Position numbers and translations under genes: made by a program
In this document: positions 5,913 to 64,000 of the stretch, in pieces
Layout: each line of letters opens with the position of its first letter
How positions within the stretch are numbered: the first letter of the stretch is position 1
NCBI GenBank assembly: GCA_947625155.1
Contig: CANQNG010000005.1
Location: forward strand, 1-64,000
Source of the DNA: an uncultured Clostridia bacterium
GTDB taxonomy: Bacteria; Bacillota; Clostridia; Oscillospirales; Ruminococcaceae
Reading direction: 5' to 3'
Length of the DNA stretch: 64,000 nucleotides
Notes under the pieces: generated by a model
The model's database searches: none
The model's input: the letters and a program-made list of their open reading frames with translations, nothing else
Told to the model about the DNA's origin: nothing

Positions 5913-6890
5913 ATGGAAAGAAAAGGAAACCTGATGACTTACAGACCGGACATCAAGGTATTTGATGCGACCGTGCGGGACGGCGGACTGGTGAACAACT
6001 TCTTCTTCACGGACGAATTTGTCAAGGCGCTCTACGTTGCCAACCTGCGTGCCGGAGTGGACTACATGGAAATGGGCTATCTCGCCGACAAGGACATTTT
6101 TGACCCGGAGGAATTCGGCGACTGGAAATTCTGCCGGGATGAGGCGATCCGCCGCATCGTGGGGAACAATGACACCGACATGAAGCTTTCCGTCATGGCA
6201 GACGTGGGACGTGCCAACCTTCAGCGTGACCTCCTCCCCAAAGAGGAAAGCGTGCTGGACATGGTACGTGTCGCCACCTACATCAACACCATGCCCGCCG
6301 CGATCGAAATGATCGAATATGCCCACAAGCTCGGCTATGAGACGACCTGCAACATCATGGCGATCTCCAAGGCGAACACCCCCGACATCGAGGAGGCGCT
6401 TGCCCTGCTCGCCAAGTCGCCGGTCGAAGCCGTGTACATCGTTGACAGCTACGGCGCACTCTTCCCGGAGCAGATACAGCAGCTCGCTTCCCTGTACGTG
6501 GAAGCCATGGAAAAGGCAGGCAAGCGTGTCGGCATCCATGCCCACAACAACCAGCAGATGGCATTTGCCAACACAGTCGAGGCATGCTCCATGGGGGCAA
6601 GTTTCCTCGATGCCACGGTAGGCAGCATGGGCAGAGGGGCAGGCAACTGTGCGATGGAACTGCTGCTCGGCTTCCTGAAGAACCCGAAATACGACATCAC
6701 CCCTGTGCTGGACTTCTATGAGCATTATATTTTAGGGCTGAAAGAGTCCGGGCTGAAATGGGGCTATGACATCCAGTACCTGCTGACCGGCAAGATGAAT
6801 CTGCACCCGTCCTCTGCCATTGCCTTCACCAAGGAGGACAGGCGGGACTATGCTGATTTCTACCACCAGCTCTTTGATCTGGAACCGTAA
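5913..6890 (+). CDS. HMGL-type aldolase catalytic domain protein
   Basis: This 325-aa TIM-barrel protein belongs to the DRE-TIM metallolyase family (isopropylmalate synthase, HMG-CoA lyase, 4-hydroxy-2-oxovalerate aldolase). The N-terminal VFDATVRDGG supplies the metal/catalytic Arg-Asp, and IHAHNNQQMAFAN and GSMGRGAGN match the barrel metal-binding His pair and the glycine loop. It lacks the regulatory domain of LeuA or homocitrate synthase. CGGAGGAC precedes the ATG at 5913; an in-frame ATG at 5934 is an alternative. The substrate cannot be read from sequence. It is followed 11 nt later by a membrane protein gene, probably one transcript. Confidence 0.8.
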   Translation: MERKGNLMTYRPDIKVFDATVRDGGLVNNFFFTDEFVKALYVANLRAGVDYMEMGYLADKDIFDPEEFGDWKFCRDEAIRRIVGNNDTDMKLSVMADVGRANLQRDLLPKEESVLDMVRVATYINTMPAAIEMIEYAHKLGYETTCNIMAISKANTPDIEEALALLAKSPVEAVYIVDSYGALFPEQIQQLASLYVEAMEKAGKRVGIHAHNNQQMAFANTVEACSMGASFLDATVGSMGRGAGNCAMELLLGFLKNPKYDITPVLDFYEHYILGLKESGLKWGYDIQYLLTGKMNLHPSSAIAFTKEDRRDYADFYHQLFDLEP

Positions 6891-6901
6891 GGAGGACCTC
6901 C

Positions 6902-8470
6902 ATGAAAAAAACTGCCGAAAAGCAGCCAAAGACTGCCGCCGAAGCATCAGCTCCGGCGGTTTCTTCCGATAAGGCTGCCAAAAAAGAGAAACATTTTACG
7001 CTTTCAGATACTTCTGCCCTGCCCGTACAGCTCGGCTATCTGTATCTGGCGATACCGATGTATCTGTTCCTGTTCGGATGGCTGAAACTGCCGCTGGCGC
7101 TGCTCACGGGCGCTGTCCTGACGGCAGGGCTGGTATTTGCGTGGAGAGATGCCCCACAGGTCGATGTTTCCTTTCTGCGCAAAGAACCGGTCATCAAGCT
7201 GCTCTGTCTCGCACTGCTCGTCATTATCTGGCTGTATCTGTCCGGTGTCGGCGGGTACTGTTATCAGAATTATGACCACCAATGGCGCAATGCCATTCTG
7301 CACCAGCTCGTCGATCAGCCATGGCCTGTCGTCTATACCGACACACATGGCACTTTTAACGGACCTGCCGCTATGATCTACTACTTCCTGCAATGGCTCC
7401 CGGCAGCCTTGTGGGGGAAATGGTTCGGCTATGCAGCTTCTCAGATCTTTCTGTATTTCTGGTGTCTCATCGGCATTTTCCTGACGCTGCTGCTGGTCAT
7501 GGGGCGCATGCAGAAATGCTCTGTCTGGATCGTGCTTGCCTTTATCTGCTTCTCCGGTCTGGACACGGTCGGGGACTTTATCCTGAACAATTCGCCGTCC
7601 TTCCTCTGGTTCGCAGGCAACCATATCGAGCATTGGGCATACGGTTTCCAGTTCTCCAGCATGTCTACGCAGCTGTTCTGGGTCTTTAATCAAGCGATCC
7701 CCGCATGGCTCATCACCATGCTCCTGCTGCTCCAGAAGAACAACCGTTCTGTCATTTTCATCTACGCATTCAGCTTTCTGTTCTGTACGCTGCCGGCGGT
7801 CGGACTTGTGCCGATCCTTGCCTTCCTCGGCATCCGGCGCATCGTCCAGAGCTATGACAAAACGCTGACCGTGGAAAAGAATATCTGGCGCATCCTAGGA
7901 GAAGCGCTGACGTTCCAGAATCTGGTCTGCGGCTGTCTGATCACGCTCCTGTCCTATTTTTTCCTCACTGTCAACCATACGACCACCAACGGCATGCATC
8001 TGGCACCCATGGAGCAGTTGCTGCCGAGCTACCTGCTGTTCGTATTTCTGGAGGCACTGGTCTATTTCATTGCCATTTACAAATACCAGAAAAAAGAGCC
8101 TCTGTTCGCCGTTTCCCTGATCTCGCTGCTGATCATCCCGATGATCCGTGTCGGCGCAAGCGTCGATTTCTGCATGCGGGCTTCTATCCCGGCACTGCTG
8201 ATCCTGCTGCTTCTGATCATGGACACCGTGGCAGCTTCCAAAGCCAAAAAGGACTGGCGTGTGTTCGTGCCAACGGTCGCTTTGCTGCTGGTCGGCAGCC
8301 TGACACCCTACCATGAATTTGACCGTTCGATCGCCAATACCATTCGCTATGCCTACGATCAAAGCACGCCTATCTATGCAGAAGAGGTAGACCTCCTGAC
8401 GGACGGCATCCCCACGAATTTCTTTGGGGAGAGCGAAGGCTCTATCTTCTTTGACTATCTGGCAAAATAA
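6902..8470 (+). CDS. Polytopic membrane protein, glycosyltransferase-like architecture
   Basis: This 522-aa protein has a charged Ala/Lys-rich N-terminal tail of about 35 residues and then roughly 11-12 hydrophobic segments. The large loop after the third segment contains YCYQNYDHQWRNAI and YTDTHGTFNGPAAMIYYF. That layout resembles multi-pass lipid-linked sugar transferases of the GT-C type, but no diagnostic motif is certain. AAGGAGG precedes the ATG. It shares a transcript with the aldolase and ends at a strong terminator. Its function is not assigned. Confidence 0.6.
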   Translation: MKKTAEKQPKTAAEASAPAVSSDKAAKKEKHFTLSDTSALPVQLGYLYLAIPMYLFLFGWLKLPLALLTGAVLTAGLVFAWRDAPQVDVSFLRKEPVIKLLCLALLVIIWLYLSGVGGYCYQNYDHQWRNAILHQLVDQPWPVVYTDTHGTFNGPAAMIYYFLQWLPAALWGKWFGYAASQIFLYFWCLIGIFLTLLLVMGRMQKCSVWIVLAFICFSGLDTVGDFILNNSPSFLWFAGNHIEHWAYGFQFSSMSTQLFWVFNQAIPAWLITMLLLLQKNNRSVIFIYAFSFLFCTLPAVGLVPILAFLGIRRIVQSYDKTLTVEKNIWRILGEALTFQNLVCGCLITLLSYFFLTVNHTTTNGMHLAPMEQLLPSYLLFVFLEALVYFIAIYKYQKKEPLFAVSLISLLIIPMIRVGASVDFCMRASIPALLILLLLIMDTVAASKAKKDWRVFVPTVALLLVGSLTPYHEFDRSIANTIRYAYDQSTPIYAEEVDLLTDGIPTNFFGESEGSIFFDYLAK

Positions 8471-59860: not shown

Positions 59861-59894
59861 TCGTTTCGCACCTATCGGCAGGCGCTAGGCTGCC

Positions 59895-59942
59895 AAAAAG
59901 TGCCGCCTCGTTTGGGATGAGACGGCACTTTTCTGCTTTGAT
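59895..59942. terminator. Bidirectional terminator
   Basis: AAAAGTGCCG/CGGCACTTTT encloses a further CTCGT...GATGAG arm, between converging genes. Confidence 0.85.
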
Positions 59943-59959: not shown

Positions 59960-61459
59960 CTACTCCCAGTTCCGGACGGCATCGTTGTAATACTGTATCA
60001 TGACGGGTCTGGTGAGCTGATTGACCGCTACGCTGTCCGTCATTTCGTCCTTTCCGAACATGAACAGCCCGGCAAGATCTTCCTCGGTGAGAAAACGGGT
60101 ATCTTCCGGCAAAGGATGCTGCTGTGTCAGGGCCTCCCTGCCAGCCATGTTGAACCCCCAGTCACCGAAGGCAGGCACTTGCAGATGATAGGGCAGCACC
60201 TGCAGCCCTTCGCTTTTCAGGGTAGCATTCACACACCAGAAAGCCTTGGTGGCATAGTAGGGGCTGGTGGACTGCACGTTCAGCACACCGCCCGGTGCAA
60301 GGTGCTGGGCACAGAGACGGTAGAAAATGTTCGTGTACAGCTTGTTGAGAGCTTCGTTATTCGGGTCGGGCAGATCGACCAGTATCACGTCATAGGTTTC
60401 CGTACAAGTCTCCAGATATTCGTAGGCATCTTCGTTGATCAGCGTCAGGCGGTCACTGGTGAGGGAATCCTGATTGAGGGCAGTGATCAGCGGATGTTCA
60501 CTGCAAAGCGCCGTCATGCCCGGATCCAGATCGACCAGCGTGATGTGCGTTTCCGGGTAGCGCAGCAATTCCCTTGCCGCAAGCCCGTCGCCGCCGCCAA
60601 GTACCAGTACCTCGTCCTGTGCAGCGGCATATGCCATGGGGATGTGTACCAGCGCTTCATGGTAGCGGTATTCGTCCATCGTGGAGAACTGACAGTTCCC
60701 GTCGATGTAGAGGCGTATGTCATCTTTATGCCTTGTCATAACGATCTTCTGATAGGCAGTCTGTTCGGAGAGGATGATATTGTCCCGGTACAGTCCGCCC
60801 TCAATGACACTTCCGATATTTTCCGAAAGCAGCATACCGCAGAACATGCACCCCAGCAGAAAACAGGTCAGGATACGGAGCGTTCTGCCGTGCCGCATCC
60901 GTTCCCGGTAGCGGAACAAGATCAGCACTGCCGCCGTCAGATTGCACGTCCCTGCCAGAAAGGCAGTCGCAAAATAGCCCAGATGCGGCAGCAGGAGCAG
61001 CGGAAATGCGATCGAGCCGACTAGACCGCCGATGTAGTCAAAGGAGAAGATCGCAGAAAGCGTGATCCGCAGGTCTTTGCGGTCGGCTTCAATGATGCGG
61101 GTGAGCAGCGGGATCTCTAAGCCTGCCAGTGTGCCGATGAGGATGATCTCCAGATACATGACCAGAGCGTAGGAGGCGAGATACAGATTTGCCAGAAACA
61201 GGATGAGGGAGCTGCATCCGCCGACCACGCCGATCGCGATCTCCACACAGGTAAAGCAGTTCCAGAGGTGTTTCCGGATGTATTTGGAGAGGAACGAACC
61301 AACGCCCAAGGCGCACATGTACAGTCCGATCGTGACCGAATACTGCAAGGTCGAGTCGCCCACCAGATAGGAACTGACCGCACTGATGATCAGCTCATAG
61401 ACCATCGAACAGCCTGAGATCATCAGTGTGGTCAGCATTAAAAGTCTGTATGGCTTCAT
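59960..61459 (-). CDS. Membrane-fused spermidine-synthase-like protein
   Basis: This 499-aa protein has an N-terminal membrane part of about six or seven helices (to about residue 210) followed by a spermidine-synthase-type Rossmann domain: EYRYHEALVHIPMA, LVLGGGDGLAARELLRYPET and ILVDLPDPNNEALNKLY. The aminopropyl-transfer Asp is kept (DLPDP) but the usual D-S-S/T-D-P context is changed. Its start codon overlaps the DUF350 stop by one base (TGATG), and no good ribosome-binding site is seen, so coupling is likely. It is the last gene of the speD-like operon. Confidence 0.82.
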   Translation of the reverse strand: MKPYRLLMLTTLMISGCSMVYELIISAVSSYLVGDSTLQYSVTIGLYMCALGVGSFLSKYIRKHLWNCFTCVEIAIGVVGGCSSLILFLANLYLASYALVMYLEIILIGTLAGLEIPLLTRIIEADRKDLRITLSAIFSFDYIGGLVGSIAFPLLLLPHLGYFATAFLAGTCNLTAAVLILFRYRERMRHGRTLRILTCFLLGCMFCGMLLSENIGSVIEGGLYRDNIILSEQTAYQKIVMTRHKDDIRLYIDGNCQFSTMDEYRYHEALVHIPMAYAAAQDEVLVLGGGDGLAARELLRYPETHITLVDLDPGMTALCSEHPLITALNQDSLTSDRLTLINEDAYEYLETCTETYDVILVDLPDPNNEALNKLYTNIFYRLCAQHLAPGGVLNVQSTSPYYATKAFWCVNATLKSEGLQVLPYHLQVPAFGDWGFNMAGREALTQQHPLPEDTRFLTEEDLAGLFMFGKDEMTDSVAVNQLTRPVMIQYYNDAVRNWE

Positions 61460-61890
61460 CACATGATAACACCGCTGATGAGAATGGCAAGCCCTGCAAA
61501 AATGCCGGCTACCATGATGCCTGCGGCAGTGTTGCCGCTGCCGATCTCATCATTGAGGTTGTACTGCCTGTTGAAATACCGGATCACCAGATACCCCAGC
61601 ATAAAGAACAGGATACCGGTGAGGAAATAGATCACACTTCCCAGCAATCCGGTCAGGAGCGTTTCTTTCACGGCTTCAGCGGGTGCGGAATAAATGGCTG
61701 CCCGCAGCAGGATGCCGATGCCGACAAATGTGCCTGCCGACACAAAACCGACTGCCTGATTTCCCTTTTTGATCTCCTCCGGGAAAGAACAGGGAATGAT
61801 CAGGTCGATCAGGAAATTGCCCGCCAGCATCAGCACGATGCCCAGACAGGAATAAATTGCCACATCCAGCAGATCATACAAATAATTCAT
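61459..61890 (-). CDS. DUF350 membrane protein
   Basis: This 143-aa protein has four hydrophobic helices in two similar halves (IYSCLGIVLMLAGNFLIDLI..., LGSVIYFLTGILFFMLGYLV...). The loop IKKGNQAVGFVSAGTFVGIG and the later IGSGNTAAGIMVAGIFAGLA show the internal repeat typical of DUF350 (YjfL family). Function unknown. AGCAAGGAGGAAATGAT precedes the ATG. Confidence 0.85.
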   Translation of the reverse strand: MNYLYDLLDVAIYSCLGIVLMLAGNFLIDLIIPCSFPEEIKKGNQAVGFVSAGTFVGIGILLRAAIYSAPAEAVKETLLTGLLGSVIYFLTGILFFMLGYLVIRYFNRQYNLNDEIGSGNTAAGIMVAGIFAGLAILISGVIM

Positions 61891-61921
61891 ATCATTTCCT
61901 CCTTGCTATCTGGGTAGATGA

Positions 61922-63004
61922 TCACTTACCGTCGCTCAGACCGCCGCCGGAGCTGGAACGGGAAGCGATGCTGCTCTGACGGACACTGTTGGAGTAGGTG
62001 TTATAGGCGTTGGAGCTGGAATAGCTGATCGTGTCCGCAGAAGAGTAACTGCTATAGGGAGAGGCGTAATGGTAAGACGACGAGTCCGCCGTATACCCTG
62101 TGGAATAGTAAAATCTCCGGTAATACCGCCTTGTACGGTCACTGGACTGGTAGGGGTCATCGTCCGTTGTGTAGGCATATTTCCGGTTGGAGATCTGTAC
62201 GAGCACCTCATCGTTCAGTGAGCTGTAGACCAGACAGTACTCCTTATCCGTCAGAATGGCGATCGCACCCTCTGTTTCCGCATCGTCACGCTGCACATAT
62301 TCTGTGTCTCCTTCGATGGCATTGATGATATCTGTCGCTGCGGCATCCACGGTGGCAGAAACTGCCTTGTAAACATTCGCTTTCTGTTTTTCGTTCCCGG
62401 TGATCGAGGTCACATAAGAATAGTAGGCAGAATTTTTCTTGAGGTATTTTGCGATCGTTCCATGTGTCGGCAGCAGCGGGGGGATAAAATTGAGCAGGAC
62501 GGTCAGAACGAACACGACCGTGATGACGATAAACCCGGCGTTCTTCCTGACGGTGTTCCCGGTCACAGTGACGGCAGTCTTGGCAGCATTGCTGCTGACC
62601 TGCCAGAATTCATCCGCATCTAAGTAATAGCCGACAGAAGTCTCCCGTTCTCCGTCCCATGTTTCGTTGGAAATGATCTTTTCCTCTGTCTCGTCCTCAA
62701 ATTCCGAAAAGAACGCCCGTTCCCCCGTGGATACATCCACATCCCCTGCATGGGAAACGACTTCCTCCGTCCCCTGATCGACCTGATGATAGCCTGTCAT
62801 ATCCGGTGTAGCTGTGACTTCCCAGAGGGAATATTCCTGATTTCCCTCATCGACGGTCAGCCAGCGTTCCGGACCGCCGCCTTCCGGGCGCAGGCGATAC
62901 TCGTCCCACGTGCTCCCCTCCATGGTATCCCGGAAAGAAATGCGCCCCAGCACTTCAAACAGCATACCGTCTGCACAAATGGTATCGCCGACCTGAAATT
63001 TCAT
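61922..63004 (-). CDS. DUF4178 membrane protein with Ser/Tyr-rich tail
   Basis: This 360-aa protein has an N-terminal beta-rich DUF4178-type domain (VGDTICADGMLFEVLGRISF, WDEYRLRPEGG), one transmembrane helix (about 157-178, FIVITVVFVLTVLLNFI), and an extracytoplasmic or lumenal region ending in about 80 residues dominated by Ser and Tyr (YSSYSSADTISYSSSNAY). The start at 63004 overlaps the speD-like stop by 4 nt. Tail composition resembles that of membrane-anchored DUF4178 proteins in PspA/YjfL-type operons. Confidence 0.8.
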   Translation of the reverse strand: MKFQVGDTICADGMLFEVLGRISFRDTMEGSTWDEYRLRPEGGGPERWLTVDEGNQEYSLWEVTATPDMTGYHQVDQGTEEVVSHAGDVDVSTGERAFFSEFEDETEEKIISNETWDGERETSVGYYLDADEFWQVSSNAAKTAVTVTGNTVRKNAGFIVITVVFVLTVLLNFIPPLLPTHGTIAKYLKKNSAYYSYVTSITGNEKQKANVYKAVSATVDAAATDIINAIEGDTEYVQRDDAETEGAIAILTDKEYCLVYSSLNDEVLVQISNRKYAYTTDDDPYQSSDRTRRYYRRFYYSTGYTADSSSYHYASPYSSYSSADTISYSSSNAYNTYSNSVRQSSIASRSSSGGGLSDGK

Positions 63005-63351
63005 ATGCTGCCCCCTTTTATAATGTCACGCCTGATCTTGCGGATACGGTGTTCCGTGCATCCGATCGCTTCTGCAAAGGCGACCGCAGCCGCTTCCGGA
63101 ATGTCCTCGGCGCAGGAAAAGATATCGACTGCCGCATATCCGTATTCCGGCCATGTGTGAATGGAAAAATGCGAAGTCGTGATCACTGCAATATACGATA
63201 CCCCGATCGGTGTAAACGAATGCACACATTCACTGACGATCTCTGCGCCGATGGCATGCACGACGGAATGTGCCATTCCGGCGAGTGCTTCTGCATCGTT
63301 GAGCAATGCCGTGTCACAGCCATAATAATCTGCTATCATCTGAACTGCCAT
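63001..63351 (-). CDS. speD: S-adenosylmethionine decarboxylase proenzyme-like (SpeD/SpeH)
   Basis: This 116-aa pyruvoyl-enzyme homologue has GVSYIAVITTSHFSIHTWPE followed by YGYAAVDIFSC. The family's self-cleaving Ser, catalytic His (SIHTWPE) and Cys (FSC) are in place, but the residue before the Ser is Thr where typical SpeD has Glu (ESH). It could be an AdoMet decarboxylase, or a homologue with altered substrate such as an arginine or ornithine decarboxylase. The start at 63351 follows AAAGGAGGCGGATAC; the longer upstream reading covers the promoter. First gene of the operon. Confidence 0.83.
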   Translation of the reverse strand: MAVQMIADYYGCDTALLNDAEALAGMAHSVVHAIGAEIVSECVHSFTPIGVSYIAVITTSHFSIHTWPEYGYAAVDIFSCAEDIPEAAAVAFAEAIGCTEHRIRKIRRDIIKGGSI

Positions 63352-63385
63352 GTATCCGCCTCCTTTGGTAGAAATTATTATAAGT

Positions 63386-63414
63386 ATTATATCATTTCCC
63401 GCTGAAAATGTCAA
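63386..63414 (-). promoter_or_regulatory. Consensus sigma-A promoter of the speD-like operon
   Basis: On the minus strand TTGACA, exactly 17 nt and TATAAT, about 35 nt upstream of the speD-like start. It is a full consensus promoter, so strong basal expression is expected. Confidence 0.88.
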
Positions 63415-63449: not shown

Positions 63450-64000
63450 TTAAAGAAAATCAACGACAGAGAAAGGAAGTTCACCGGTCTTCTTACGTTG
63501 ACGGTATTTATATTTAGCTAAGCCAAAGCGATTGTAAGCATCAATGAATACAGCCACAACCGCATAAAGTGTTTCAATTTTTCGGGCAAAGCATCTGCTT
63601 CTTCTTGCAAGAACAGGAATATAATGGCGTAAATCAGCATTTATGCTTTCAACATTATGTGTATCTTTTTTATCTCGTATATTACGAATGTGCCTGCCCG
63701 GAAAAACAACATCCATGTATCCGAAGTATCCATCAGTATAATAAAAATCAGCTTCAGGTGAATTGTCAACAATATTTTGTATTCGTTCACTCGATTTATC
63801 AGACGCAGCATCAAAACCGACGATCAAACGTGGATCTCGGCTTATCATCGTTATTAAATAAACATTTTCACGAGTTTCCGAATTACCTTTTCTTCCTACA
63901 AACCAATAGAGTTCATCTAATTCACGCTCTGATGGCAAATTTTCAATCTCAACATCAACCTCAACGTCAAGATTTAGTTTTTTTTATCCAGTTATAGACA
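63450..64000 (-). mobile_element. IS1-like transposase, 3' part, cut by the window end
   Basis: The main frame has DELYWFVGRKGNSETRENVY, YYTDGYFGYMD and HNVESINADLRHYIPVLARR, a DDE set like IS1-family InsB with the typical C-terminal arginine-rich NxxLRHY region. It stays open upstream to a TAA at 63984-63986. A second frame from the window edge reads VYNWIKKTKS and stops at 63967. The two meet at a run of eight A (63978-63985), so the element may have two frames joined by slippage. DNA here is clearly more AT-rich than the rest of the window, as for an acquired element. The IS end lies somewhere in about 63420-63450. Confidence 0.75.

Follow-up and report, generated by a model that had tools for sequence, protein, structure and literature searches.

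A candidate protein-aminopropylating operon with a lysine-terminated tail in an uncultured Clostridia bacterium

What does a spermidine-synthase-like enzyme act on when it is built into a membrane protein? The question is raised by a four-gene operon on the minus strand of a 64,000-nucleotide (nt) stretch from an uncultured Clostridia bacterium of the Ruminococcaceae (assembly GCA_947625155.1, contig CANQNG010000005.1, positions 1–64,000; this whole stretch is called the window, and coordinates refer to it). By open reading frame (ORF) listing and Pfam, the operon encodes, in order, SpeD, a DUF4178 protein, a DUF350 protein and a fusion of a seven-transmembrane (7-TM) domain to a spermidine-synthase-like domain. 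A preliminary description of this DNA had named the same four families, and Pfam matches to PF02675, PF13785, PF03994 and PF01564, all in minus-strand ORFs, confirm them. The available part of Ravi et al. 2024 (PMC11237479) leaves open what membrane-fused spermidine synthases act on. Here we describe a well-supported link between such fused enzymes and a partner protein whose flexible tail ends in lysine, which makes one exact residue a candidate acceptor. Li et al. 2019 reportedly leave the acceptor open as well.

Lysine-terminated tails beside the fused enzyme

The DUF4178 protein of the window (61922..63004, minus strand, 360 amino acids (aa); PF13785, 3.9e-16) is composed of an N-terminal DUF4178 domain, a single TM segment (residues 156–174, 62483..62539, minus strand, by hydropathy scan) and a C-terminal domain that runs into a tail, SVRQSSIASRSSSGGGLSDGK (61925..61987, minus strand), ending in SSSGGGLSDGK. 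Its last codon encodes Lys, the proposed acceptor, singled out by alignment and locus-wide tests. DUF4178 proteins of the window's relatives end in SVRQxSxxxRxSSGGGxSxGK or near it, with the final Gly-Lys invariant (25/25) and a mean column identity of 44%. In other phyla DUF4178 has a different, often acidic C-terminus, and a separate gene bears the Lys-terminated tail. These separate genes, found in Proteobacteria, Elusimicrobia, Planctomycetes and others, encode proteins of 43–69 aa with one hydrophobic segment and lie between DUF4178 and DUF350; the tail proteins of Actinobacteria are of the DUF4247 type (one confirmed by Pfam).

The pattern was counted in 74 fused-enzyme loci, the window's own and 73 from a fused-protein search of named genomes, all scanned with profiles built here. 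DUF350 is present in 59, DUF4178 in 58 (including a weak cross-hit, L039) and SpeD, within the fetched stretch, in 30. This speaks for a conserved unit; the absence of co-occurrence named as a refutation in the preliminary description is not observed. The exact order SpeD, DUF4178, DUF350, fused enzyme occurs at 13 of the 74 loci; elsewhere SpeD follows the enzyme or lies apart. Every DUF350-bearing locus (59/59) encodes a Lys-tail protein, in most cases one that has a TM or signal segment. Of 5772 ORFs of at least 40 aa across all 74 loci, 42 carry a C-terminus rich in Gly/Ser. The last residue is Lys in 38 of them, each encoded on the strand of the fused gene and upstream of it. In a positional test, the ORF that stops immediately ahead of DUF350 has Lys as its last residue at 50/59 loci, against a background of 219/2606 ORFs. 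The nine misses comprise four with a stop 51–52 nt past the profile start, one with the tail gene after DUF350 and four with it one gene upstream; on individual inspection each of the nine loci has a Lys-tail protein. L035 and L045 have short tail proteins whose last residue is Lys, without Gly enrichment. The 15 DUF350-free loci were left out of the positional count: L056 has a tail, a terminal fragment in L033 ends in Lys, L061, L070 and L074 are cut by contig ends, and ten are tail-free.

Separate samples were drawn on the partner families themselves. DUF4247 was found in 16 of 148 actinobacterial genomes; the protein ends in Lys in 16/16, beside DUF350 in 16/16 and beside the fused enzyme in 15/16. 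L133 and L061 share one genome (G033), which belongs to the first set too and leaves at most 15 of the 16 genomes as new. In the window's phylum, a family-based search located DUF4178 in 22 of 398 genomes, and a Lys tail is present at 12/12 loci with the fused enzyme (own included) and 0/10 without it (Fisher test, 1.5e-6, uncorrected for kinship). The stretches span 3.4 kb for the own genome and G926 and 9–13 kb for the others, and the split held on a recheck along their full length. A single family (f54) accounts for six of the ten negatives, and L179 and L182 were re-found by Pfam's DUF4178 profile only, not by the one built here. The tail of L172 ends in RGGGFGFGK, one residue short of the automatic filter. 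Five enzyme-free loci have DUF350 by our profile or Pfam's (L173, L174, L180, L175 and L176), with PspA in L173. In L175, L176, L177 and L180, all enzyme-free, the lipoprotein beside DUF4178 ends in Arg, as GGGRIMRRR or KIRKRGRR, and the Arg-ending partner of L175 (GGGRIMRRR), which stands beside DUF350 and is the one of the four that was scanned, is a DUF4247 protein (Pfam, 8.8e-27). One family can thus have either C-terminal residue, Lys next to the enzyme and Arg where the enzyme is absent. PspA is present in three related Bacillota loci scanned by Pfam. A DUF1190 sample was small (3 of 143 genomes) and yielded two tails that could be read, each with Gly as its last residue.

The ten separate tail proteins among the phylum's positives all have an N-terminal hydrophobic segment, and seven have a lipobox-like motif. 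A DUF4247 protein is predicted to be extracellular in the available part of PMC3726780. Taken together, the hydrophobic starts, the lipoboxes and this prediction suggest that the tail should be outside, on the same side as the catalytic domain as placed by the charge rule below.

Catalytic domain, orientation and donor supply

The fusion (59960..61462, minus strand, 500 aa) matches PF01564 (Spermine_synth) at 4.6e-33 and NCBIfam NF002956 at 608.8 bits, with a cut-off of 472. Its aminopropyltransferase-like domain (residues 228–500, 59963..60781, minus strand, predicted to lie on the outer face) was aligned with soluble SpeE (e.g., PDB 1uir and 6bq2) and 49 relatives (50 sequences). Gln238, Tyr267, Asp345, Asp363 and Asp366 are invariant in the 50, Asp292 and Asp311 are kept in at least 90%, and the donor-site and catalytic residues of SpeE are present. 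We take Gln238, Asp292, Asp311, Asp345, Asp363, Asp366 and Tyr267 to serve the donor-binding and catalytic roles familiar from spermidine synthase structures, with Asp292 presumably binding the aminopropyl group; its column holds Asp in 68/74 fused enzymes.

The putrescine-type acceptor pocket, by contrast, is not retained by sequence, soluble SpeE differing at Arg266, Trp409 and Phe432. Arg266, which adjoins the acceptor Tyr267, is present in 74/74 fused enzymes and in 23/23 further ones showing that stretch (19 + 4; three loci do not show it). Arg precedes the acceptor Tyr in 0/10 soluble SpeE from related genomes, which have Ile, Val, Thr or Phe instead. Trp409 and Phe432 are found in 72/74 fused enzymes, the remaining two being gaps. 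Judging from its position beside the acceptor Tyr, Arg266 might bind a C-terminal carboxylate. The motif scan of the extra loci was relaxed, as the Met before DEY is not conserved there, and a His requirement was later dropped too; weaker fused-enzyme matches in 541–552-aa frames (G119, G147, G180 and G199) may be other fused proteins.

Family-averaged hydropathy delineates seven TM segments, TM7 being the most hydrophobic, in the 7-TM domain (residues 7–213, 60824..61444, minus strand). Lys and Arg together average 9.7 per protein in loops 2–3, 4–5 and 6–7 and 1.1 in loops 1–2, 3–4 and 5–6, and the excess lies in the loops taken as inside in 50/50 proteins and in 10/10 new sequences. With the N-terminus inside by this charge bias and an odd number of TM segments, the positive-inside rule would place the catalytic domain on the outer face. 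Downstream of TM7 there are more acidic than basic residues in 34/50; the ten new sequences include five acidic, three even and two basic. Acidic residues occur inside TM1, TM3, TM4 and TM5: across the 50 aligned proteins E23, E116 and D142 are invariant and E74 is kept in at least 90%. Speculatively, these residues could pass a cationic donor. As a gauge of an outside location, Cys depletion was counted too: Cys residues number 0–3 per catalytic domain in rows L033 onward and 1–7 in the window and L002–L032, a comparison made without a proper cytosolic control.

SpeD (63001..63351, minus strand, 116 aa) is a class-1b-type S-adenosylmethionine (AdoMet) decarboxylase proenzyme, matching PF02675 (6.8e-33), TIGR03330 (above cut-off) and PDB 1tlu (5e-22), and is the sole PF02675 match found in its own genome (assembly 86.5% complete). 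The class 1b processing Ser, His and Cys are present (TSHFSIHTWPE...FSC), with roles as given in the available part of PMC10407285. Ahead of the Ser stands Thr instead of Glu; the close relatives listed have either Thr or Ala there. The same part of PMC10407285 has a Pro separating AdoMet decarboxylases from the ADC group and leaves its alignment column unstated; the Pro present in HTWPE may or may not be the one meant. Production of decarboxylated AdoMet (dcAdoMet) by SpeD is supported at the family level.

Across the window's order (197 genomes, own included), PF02675 is found in 45, a taxon mix that differs from the fused-enzyme set; the short, strong SpeD (1e-32) is confined to the own genome, the other matches ranging from 4e-7 to 8e-15 in 176–357-aa frames. 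A genome-level query covered 50 fused-enzyme genomes (own, six with SpeD in the locus and 43 without), representing the window and 49 of the 73 other loci. PF02675 is present in 36 of the 50: the own genome, all six with SpeD nearby and 29 of the 43 have it. Five of the 14 PF02675-negative genomes, all Elusimicrobia, carry the class 2 AdoMet decarboxylase PF01536, which brings either family to 41/50 genomes and to 34/43 of those without a nearby SpeD. Where the locus lacks SpeD, the donor enzyme is thus usually elsewhere in the genome.

The own genome also encodes, elsewhere and above cut-off, agmatine deiminase, N-carbamoylputrescine amidase, carboxynorspermidine decarboxylase and a soluble SpeE, together with decarboxylase-like and carboxynorspermidine-synthase-like genes under cut-off. 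The soluble SpeE paralogue (G000:C1 48044-48586; L097; L119:7874-8731) has YDE for YHE and a Cys in IPTCPSG; its neighbors are a decarboxylase-like gene on one side and carboxynorspermidine-type genes on the other. A strong soluble SpeE (E below 1e-50) occurs in 63 genomes of the order, own included; 19 of the 63 have no PF02675 match, so some such SpeE may use another substrate or donor. The idea that the operon's SpeD mainly feeds the soluble SpeE on contig 1 was dropped on account of the odd SpeE residues, the carboxynorspermidine-type neighbors and the 19/63 PF02675-free genomes. The dcAdoMet may be shared with this SpeE, which passes two SpeE models above cut-off.

Proposed reaction and its rivals

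We tentatively propose, with confidence just short of even, that the operon encodes a system for modifying proteins on the outside of the cytoplasmic membrane, which would aminopropylate the C-terminal lysine of a partner protein. SpeD would supply dcAdoMet, as its family suggests. The fused protein would be an aminopropyltransferase whose donor site and catalytic aspartates are kept and whose acceptor pocket is changed from that of soluble SpeE. Its 7-TM half, with the N-terminus inside, would position the catalytic domain outside; it may also move the cationic donor through the membrane, possibly together with the YjfL-type membrane protein DUF350 (61459..61890, minus strand, 143 aa; PF03994, 6.8e-28). 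The acceptor would be the C-terminal lysine of a dedicated partner's flexible tail, here the DUF4178 end. As the lysine side chain equals the aminobutyl half of putrescine, aminopropyl addition would give a spermidine-like tip, which, more speculatively, may have a part in controlling envelope stress by binding anionic lipid or DUF350. Of what the preliminary description had entertained, a membrane or secreted target emerges as the best reading; a modified polyamine as product is not supported, given the other polyamine genes of the genome and the altered acceptor pocket, neither fact being decisive.

A wider version is more doubtful, and we would lean against it: a widespread extracytoplasmic modification in which dcAdoMet is exported through the enzyme's own 7-TM domain, the lysine of a surface tail becomes N-epsilon-aminopropyl-lysine, mimicking spermidine, in convergence with ATP-grasp peptide-spermidine ligation, and DUF350 and PspA serve as shared readers. 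If tail-lysine aminopropylation is right, it would constitute a new post-translational modification and would link the PspA stress system with DUF350, DUF4178 and DUF4247. We know of no earlier aminopropyl transfer to a protein, nor of any outside the cytoplasm, and it would to our knowledge be the first.

Several observations weigh against lysine aminopropylation at the outer face. The 74 loci in which the tail pattern was first counted are also those in which it was discovered, and the enzyme-free status of the ten DUF4178 negatives was judged within the fetched stretch only. Ten of the 15 DUF350-free loci with a fused enzyme show no plausible Lys-tail protein in the fetched stretch (L037, L038, L040, L051 and L071 in Poribacteria; L053, L055, L059, L060 and L069 in Bacteroidota); two short minus-strand frames in L053 pass a loose tail filter and look like chance. 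The lysine is therefore unlikely to be the acceptor at these ten loci, and part or all of the fused family may have another target. At L172 both enzyme and tail are present, with no DUF350 seen within 12 kb. NF002956, which the fused protein passes, is a polyamine-aminopropyltransferase model, and the pocket-lining role of the Arg266, Trp409 and Phe432 positions is our assumption from spermidine synthase structures. After TM7, basic residues exceed acidic ones in 7/50 proteins and in 2/10 new sequences; a half-inserted TM7 would place the catalytic domain inside; and Gln replaces one or two of the acidic TM residues in 4/10 check sequences. Neither AdoMet decarboxylase Pfam family was detected in 9/50 genomes, several of them metagenome assemblies that may be incomplete, and the nine include the actinobacterial isolates Micromonospora rosaria, Janibacter sp. 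and Gordonia soli.

The tail-free loci would suit an enzyme that aminopropylates an envelope lipid or other small envelope molecule, the tail protein being a presenting or sensing accessory. Membrane fusion, the predicted outward topology, PspA in the three Bacillota loci and a nearby amine-oxidase-like gene, often with an export motif, all fit such an enzyme; we nevertheless consider it unlikely, as it predicts neither a C-terminal lysine across at least five phyla, counted by record title, nor its absence from loci lacking only the enzyme. A chemically unchanged tail that serves DUF350 or the enzyme as a signal for recognition or assembly is, in our judgment, rather unlikely. Gly-rich tails are often flexible docking peptides, and in the first set the tail tracks DUF350, being present at 59/59 loci with it and 2/15 without (L056 and the L033 terminal fragment). 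Against this, enzyme-free loci with DUF350 do not have the lysine, one DUF4247 partner there ending in Arg, and L172 combines enzyme and tail without DUF350 in reach; the lysine follows the enzyme. It is possible that the tail is a docking signal for the enzyme itself.

Passage of NF002956, the kept catalytic residues and speD in the operon are what an ordinary membrane-tethered spermidine synthase, making spermidine for local use, would show. We regard this as improbable: the acceptor-near positions Arg266, Trp409 and Phe432 are near-uniformly changed in the fused family, the own genome has further polyamine genes including the soluble SpeE, and the Lys tail would be left unexplained. In addition, a spermidine synthase mutant was reportedly not complemented by the fusion (Li et al. 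2019). In decarboxylase-free lineages, the fused enzyme might instead use AdoMet and transfer a 3-amino-3-carboxypropyl group, as nicotianamine and betaine-lipid synthases do. The nine of 50 genomes without a detected AdoMet decarboxylase point that way, and so does the control Corynebacterium glutamicum, a safe laboratory organism, which has matches for DUF350, DUF4178, DUF4247 and PF01564 and no PF02675 match. Even so, 41/50 genomes have a decarboxylase and Asp292 is kept in 68/74 enzymes, so we hold this very improbable, and it is inapplicable to the window, which has speD.

Genomic setting and kindred systems

A sigma-70-type promoter, TTGACA-17-TATAAT (63386..63414, minus strand), precedes the operon, as the preliminary description had it; called by consensus match alone, it matches at 12/12 positions and has TG ahead of the -10 hexamer (extended -10). 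AAAGGAGG stands ahead of the speD ATG (start at 63351). Junction overlaps of 4, 0 and 1 nt had been given and need correction: speD and DUF4178 overlap by 4 nt, a 31-nt gap separates DUF4178 from DUF350, and DUF350 and the fusion overlap by 4 nt. A terminator-like stem lies ~30 nt beyond the last stop of the fused gene; this likely intrinsic terminator (59894..59929, minus strand) was read by eye (10/11 pairs, a loop of 9, TTTTT) and is unlisted in the hairpin scan, which allowed loops of 3–8. The downstream neighbor is a convergent SpoVB/MurJ-like flippase gene, and an IS1-like transposase fragment lies upstream of the promoter (63450..63938, minus strand; PF03400, 1.9e-05; NF033558, 8.7e-09, below its cut-off). 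An Rfam scan of the window at gathering thresholds gave 0 matches. Among the adjacent ORFs scanned there is no PspA, CesT/Tir or ATP-grasp ligase match; the rest of the genome was not searched for CesT/Tir or the ligase. The earlier label of a "minimal version" is apt insofar as PspA is not adjacent; it fails in that a PspA gene occurs elsewhere in the genome and that the separate tail gene of other phyla is here fused to DUF4178.

Within the order, DUF4178 and above-cut-off DUF350 occur in the own genome only, and its fused enzyme is the sole strong long-frame match of the non-soluble kind, the four weaker 541–552-aa frames aside. This distribution fits acquisition of the whole set by transfer. 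DUF350 in other loci includes half-length forms of 66–75 aa, sometimes as tandem genes; the tandem genes of L023 and L025–L032 (e.g., L023:6538-6741 and 6769-6972) are mostly 66–70 aa, about half of the window's 143 aa. A PDB sequence search returned one chance match for DUF350 (E 0.84) and none for DUF4178. A flavin amine-oxidase-like gene adjoins the fused enzyme in 19/74 loci, all outside Bacillota by record title (four scanned by Pfam), lying after the fused gene in L035, L037–L039, L041–L048, L051, L052, L054, L058, L065, L071 and L072 (L041 weak). Thirteen of the 19 have a twin-arginine motif (one in an over-extended frame), and lipobox-like signals are frequent too. This enzyme may oxidize the fused enzyme's product, and its presence fits an amine outside, without naming that amine. 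In the Poribacteria locus L037, a sulfatase-modifying-factor (FGE-like) gene precedes the fused enzyme (L037:5820-6905), and genes of similar size likewise stand before it in the other four Poribacteria loci.

The fused enzyme shares its fold family and its donor-site and catalytic motifs with soluble SpeE (PDB 1uir and 6bq2), which is without the 7-TM domain and in which no Arg precedes the acceptor Tyr. Hypusine on eIF5A is a known case of a lysine whose side chain is lengthened by an amine from a polyamine; unlike the reaction proposed here, hypusine formation transfers an aminobutyl group from spermidine via deoxyhypusine synthase to an internal lysine in the cytosol. The available part of Ravi et al. 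2024 (PMC11237479) describes a PspA-CesT/Tir operon group 2 with a 7-TM/spermidine-synthase fusion, DUF350, DUF4178, a lipoprotein and PspA, suggests monitoring of polyamine level or of aminopropylation of other substrates, and predicts DUF4178 to be intracellular; the words "lysine" and "glycine-rich" are absent from that text. The window operon is like group 2 in uniting fused enzyme, DUF350 and DUF4178, and unlike it in having speD, in its tail-bearing part being fused to DUF4178 and in having neither PspA nor CesT/Tir among the adjacent ORFs. A literature search, with most subscription journals outside its reach, found no report of the Lys tail or the outward topology. The operon kind is thus already in print, and the Lys-tail association and its reading are new here. 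Li et al. 2019 are said to have described a pair of AdoMet decarboxylase and an MFS-spermidine-synthase-like fusion with DUF350 and to have argued for a non-putrescine acceptor; the work is not known to name an acceptor or to make a tail or topology claim. The window, with AdoMet decarboxylase, fused enzyme and DUF350, resembles that pair.

By RefSeq annotation, the yjfIJKLMC operon of Escherichia coli (E. coli) places DUF350 (yjfL) with the PspA-family YjfJ, the DUF1190 protein YjfM and the peptide-spermidine ligase YjfC, and ygiBC forms a second pair with the peptide-spermidine ligase YgiC (cf. Pederick 2023) and no DUF350 in the stretch shown. As in the window, where a partner with a conserved flexible C-terminus stands beside a polyamine-type enzyme and DUF350, a flexible-tail protein lies near a polyamine-type enzyme, and the yjf operon adds DUF350 and the PspA family. 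The Gly/Ser-rich tails of YjfM and YgiB end in HWGG and SMGG, that is, in Gly, unlike the Lys of the window. YjfC and YgiC are presumably ATP-grasp ligases, unlike the window's aminopropyltransferase; a peptide-spermidine ligase needs a carboxylate and spermidine, and an aminopropyltransferase needs an amine. We infer that YjfM or YgiB may be the substrate of the adjacent ligase. The two kinds of system would then represent two routes to a polyamine-tipped flexible tail, linked to DUF350 and PspA.

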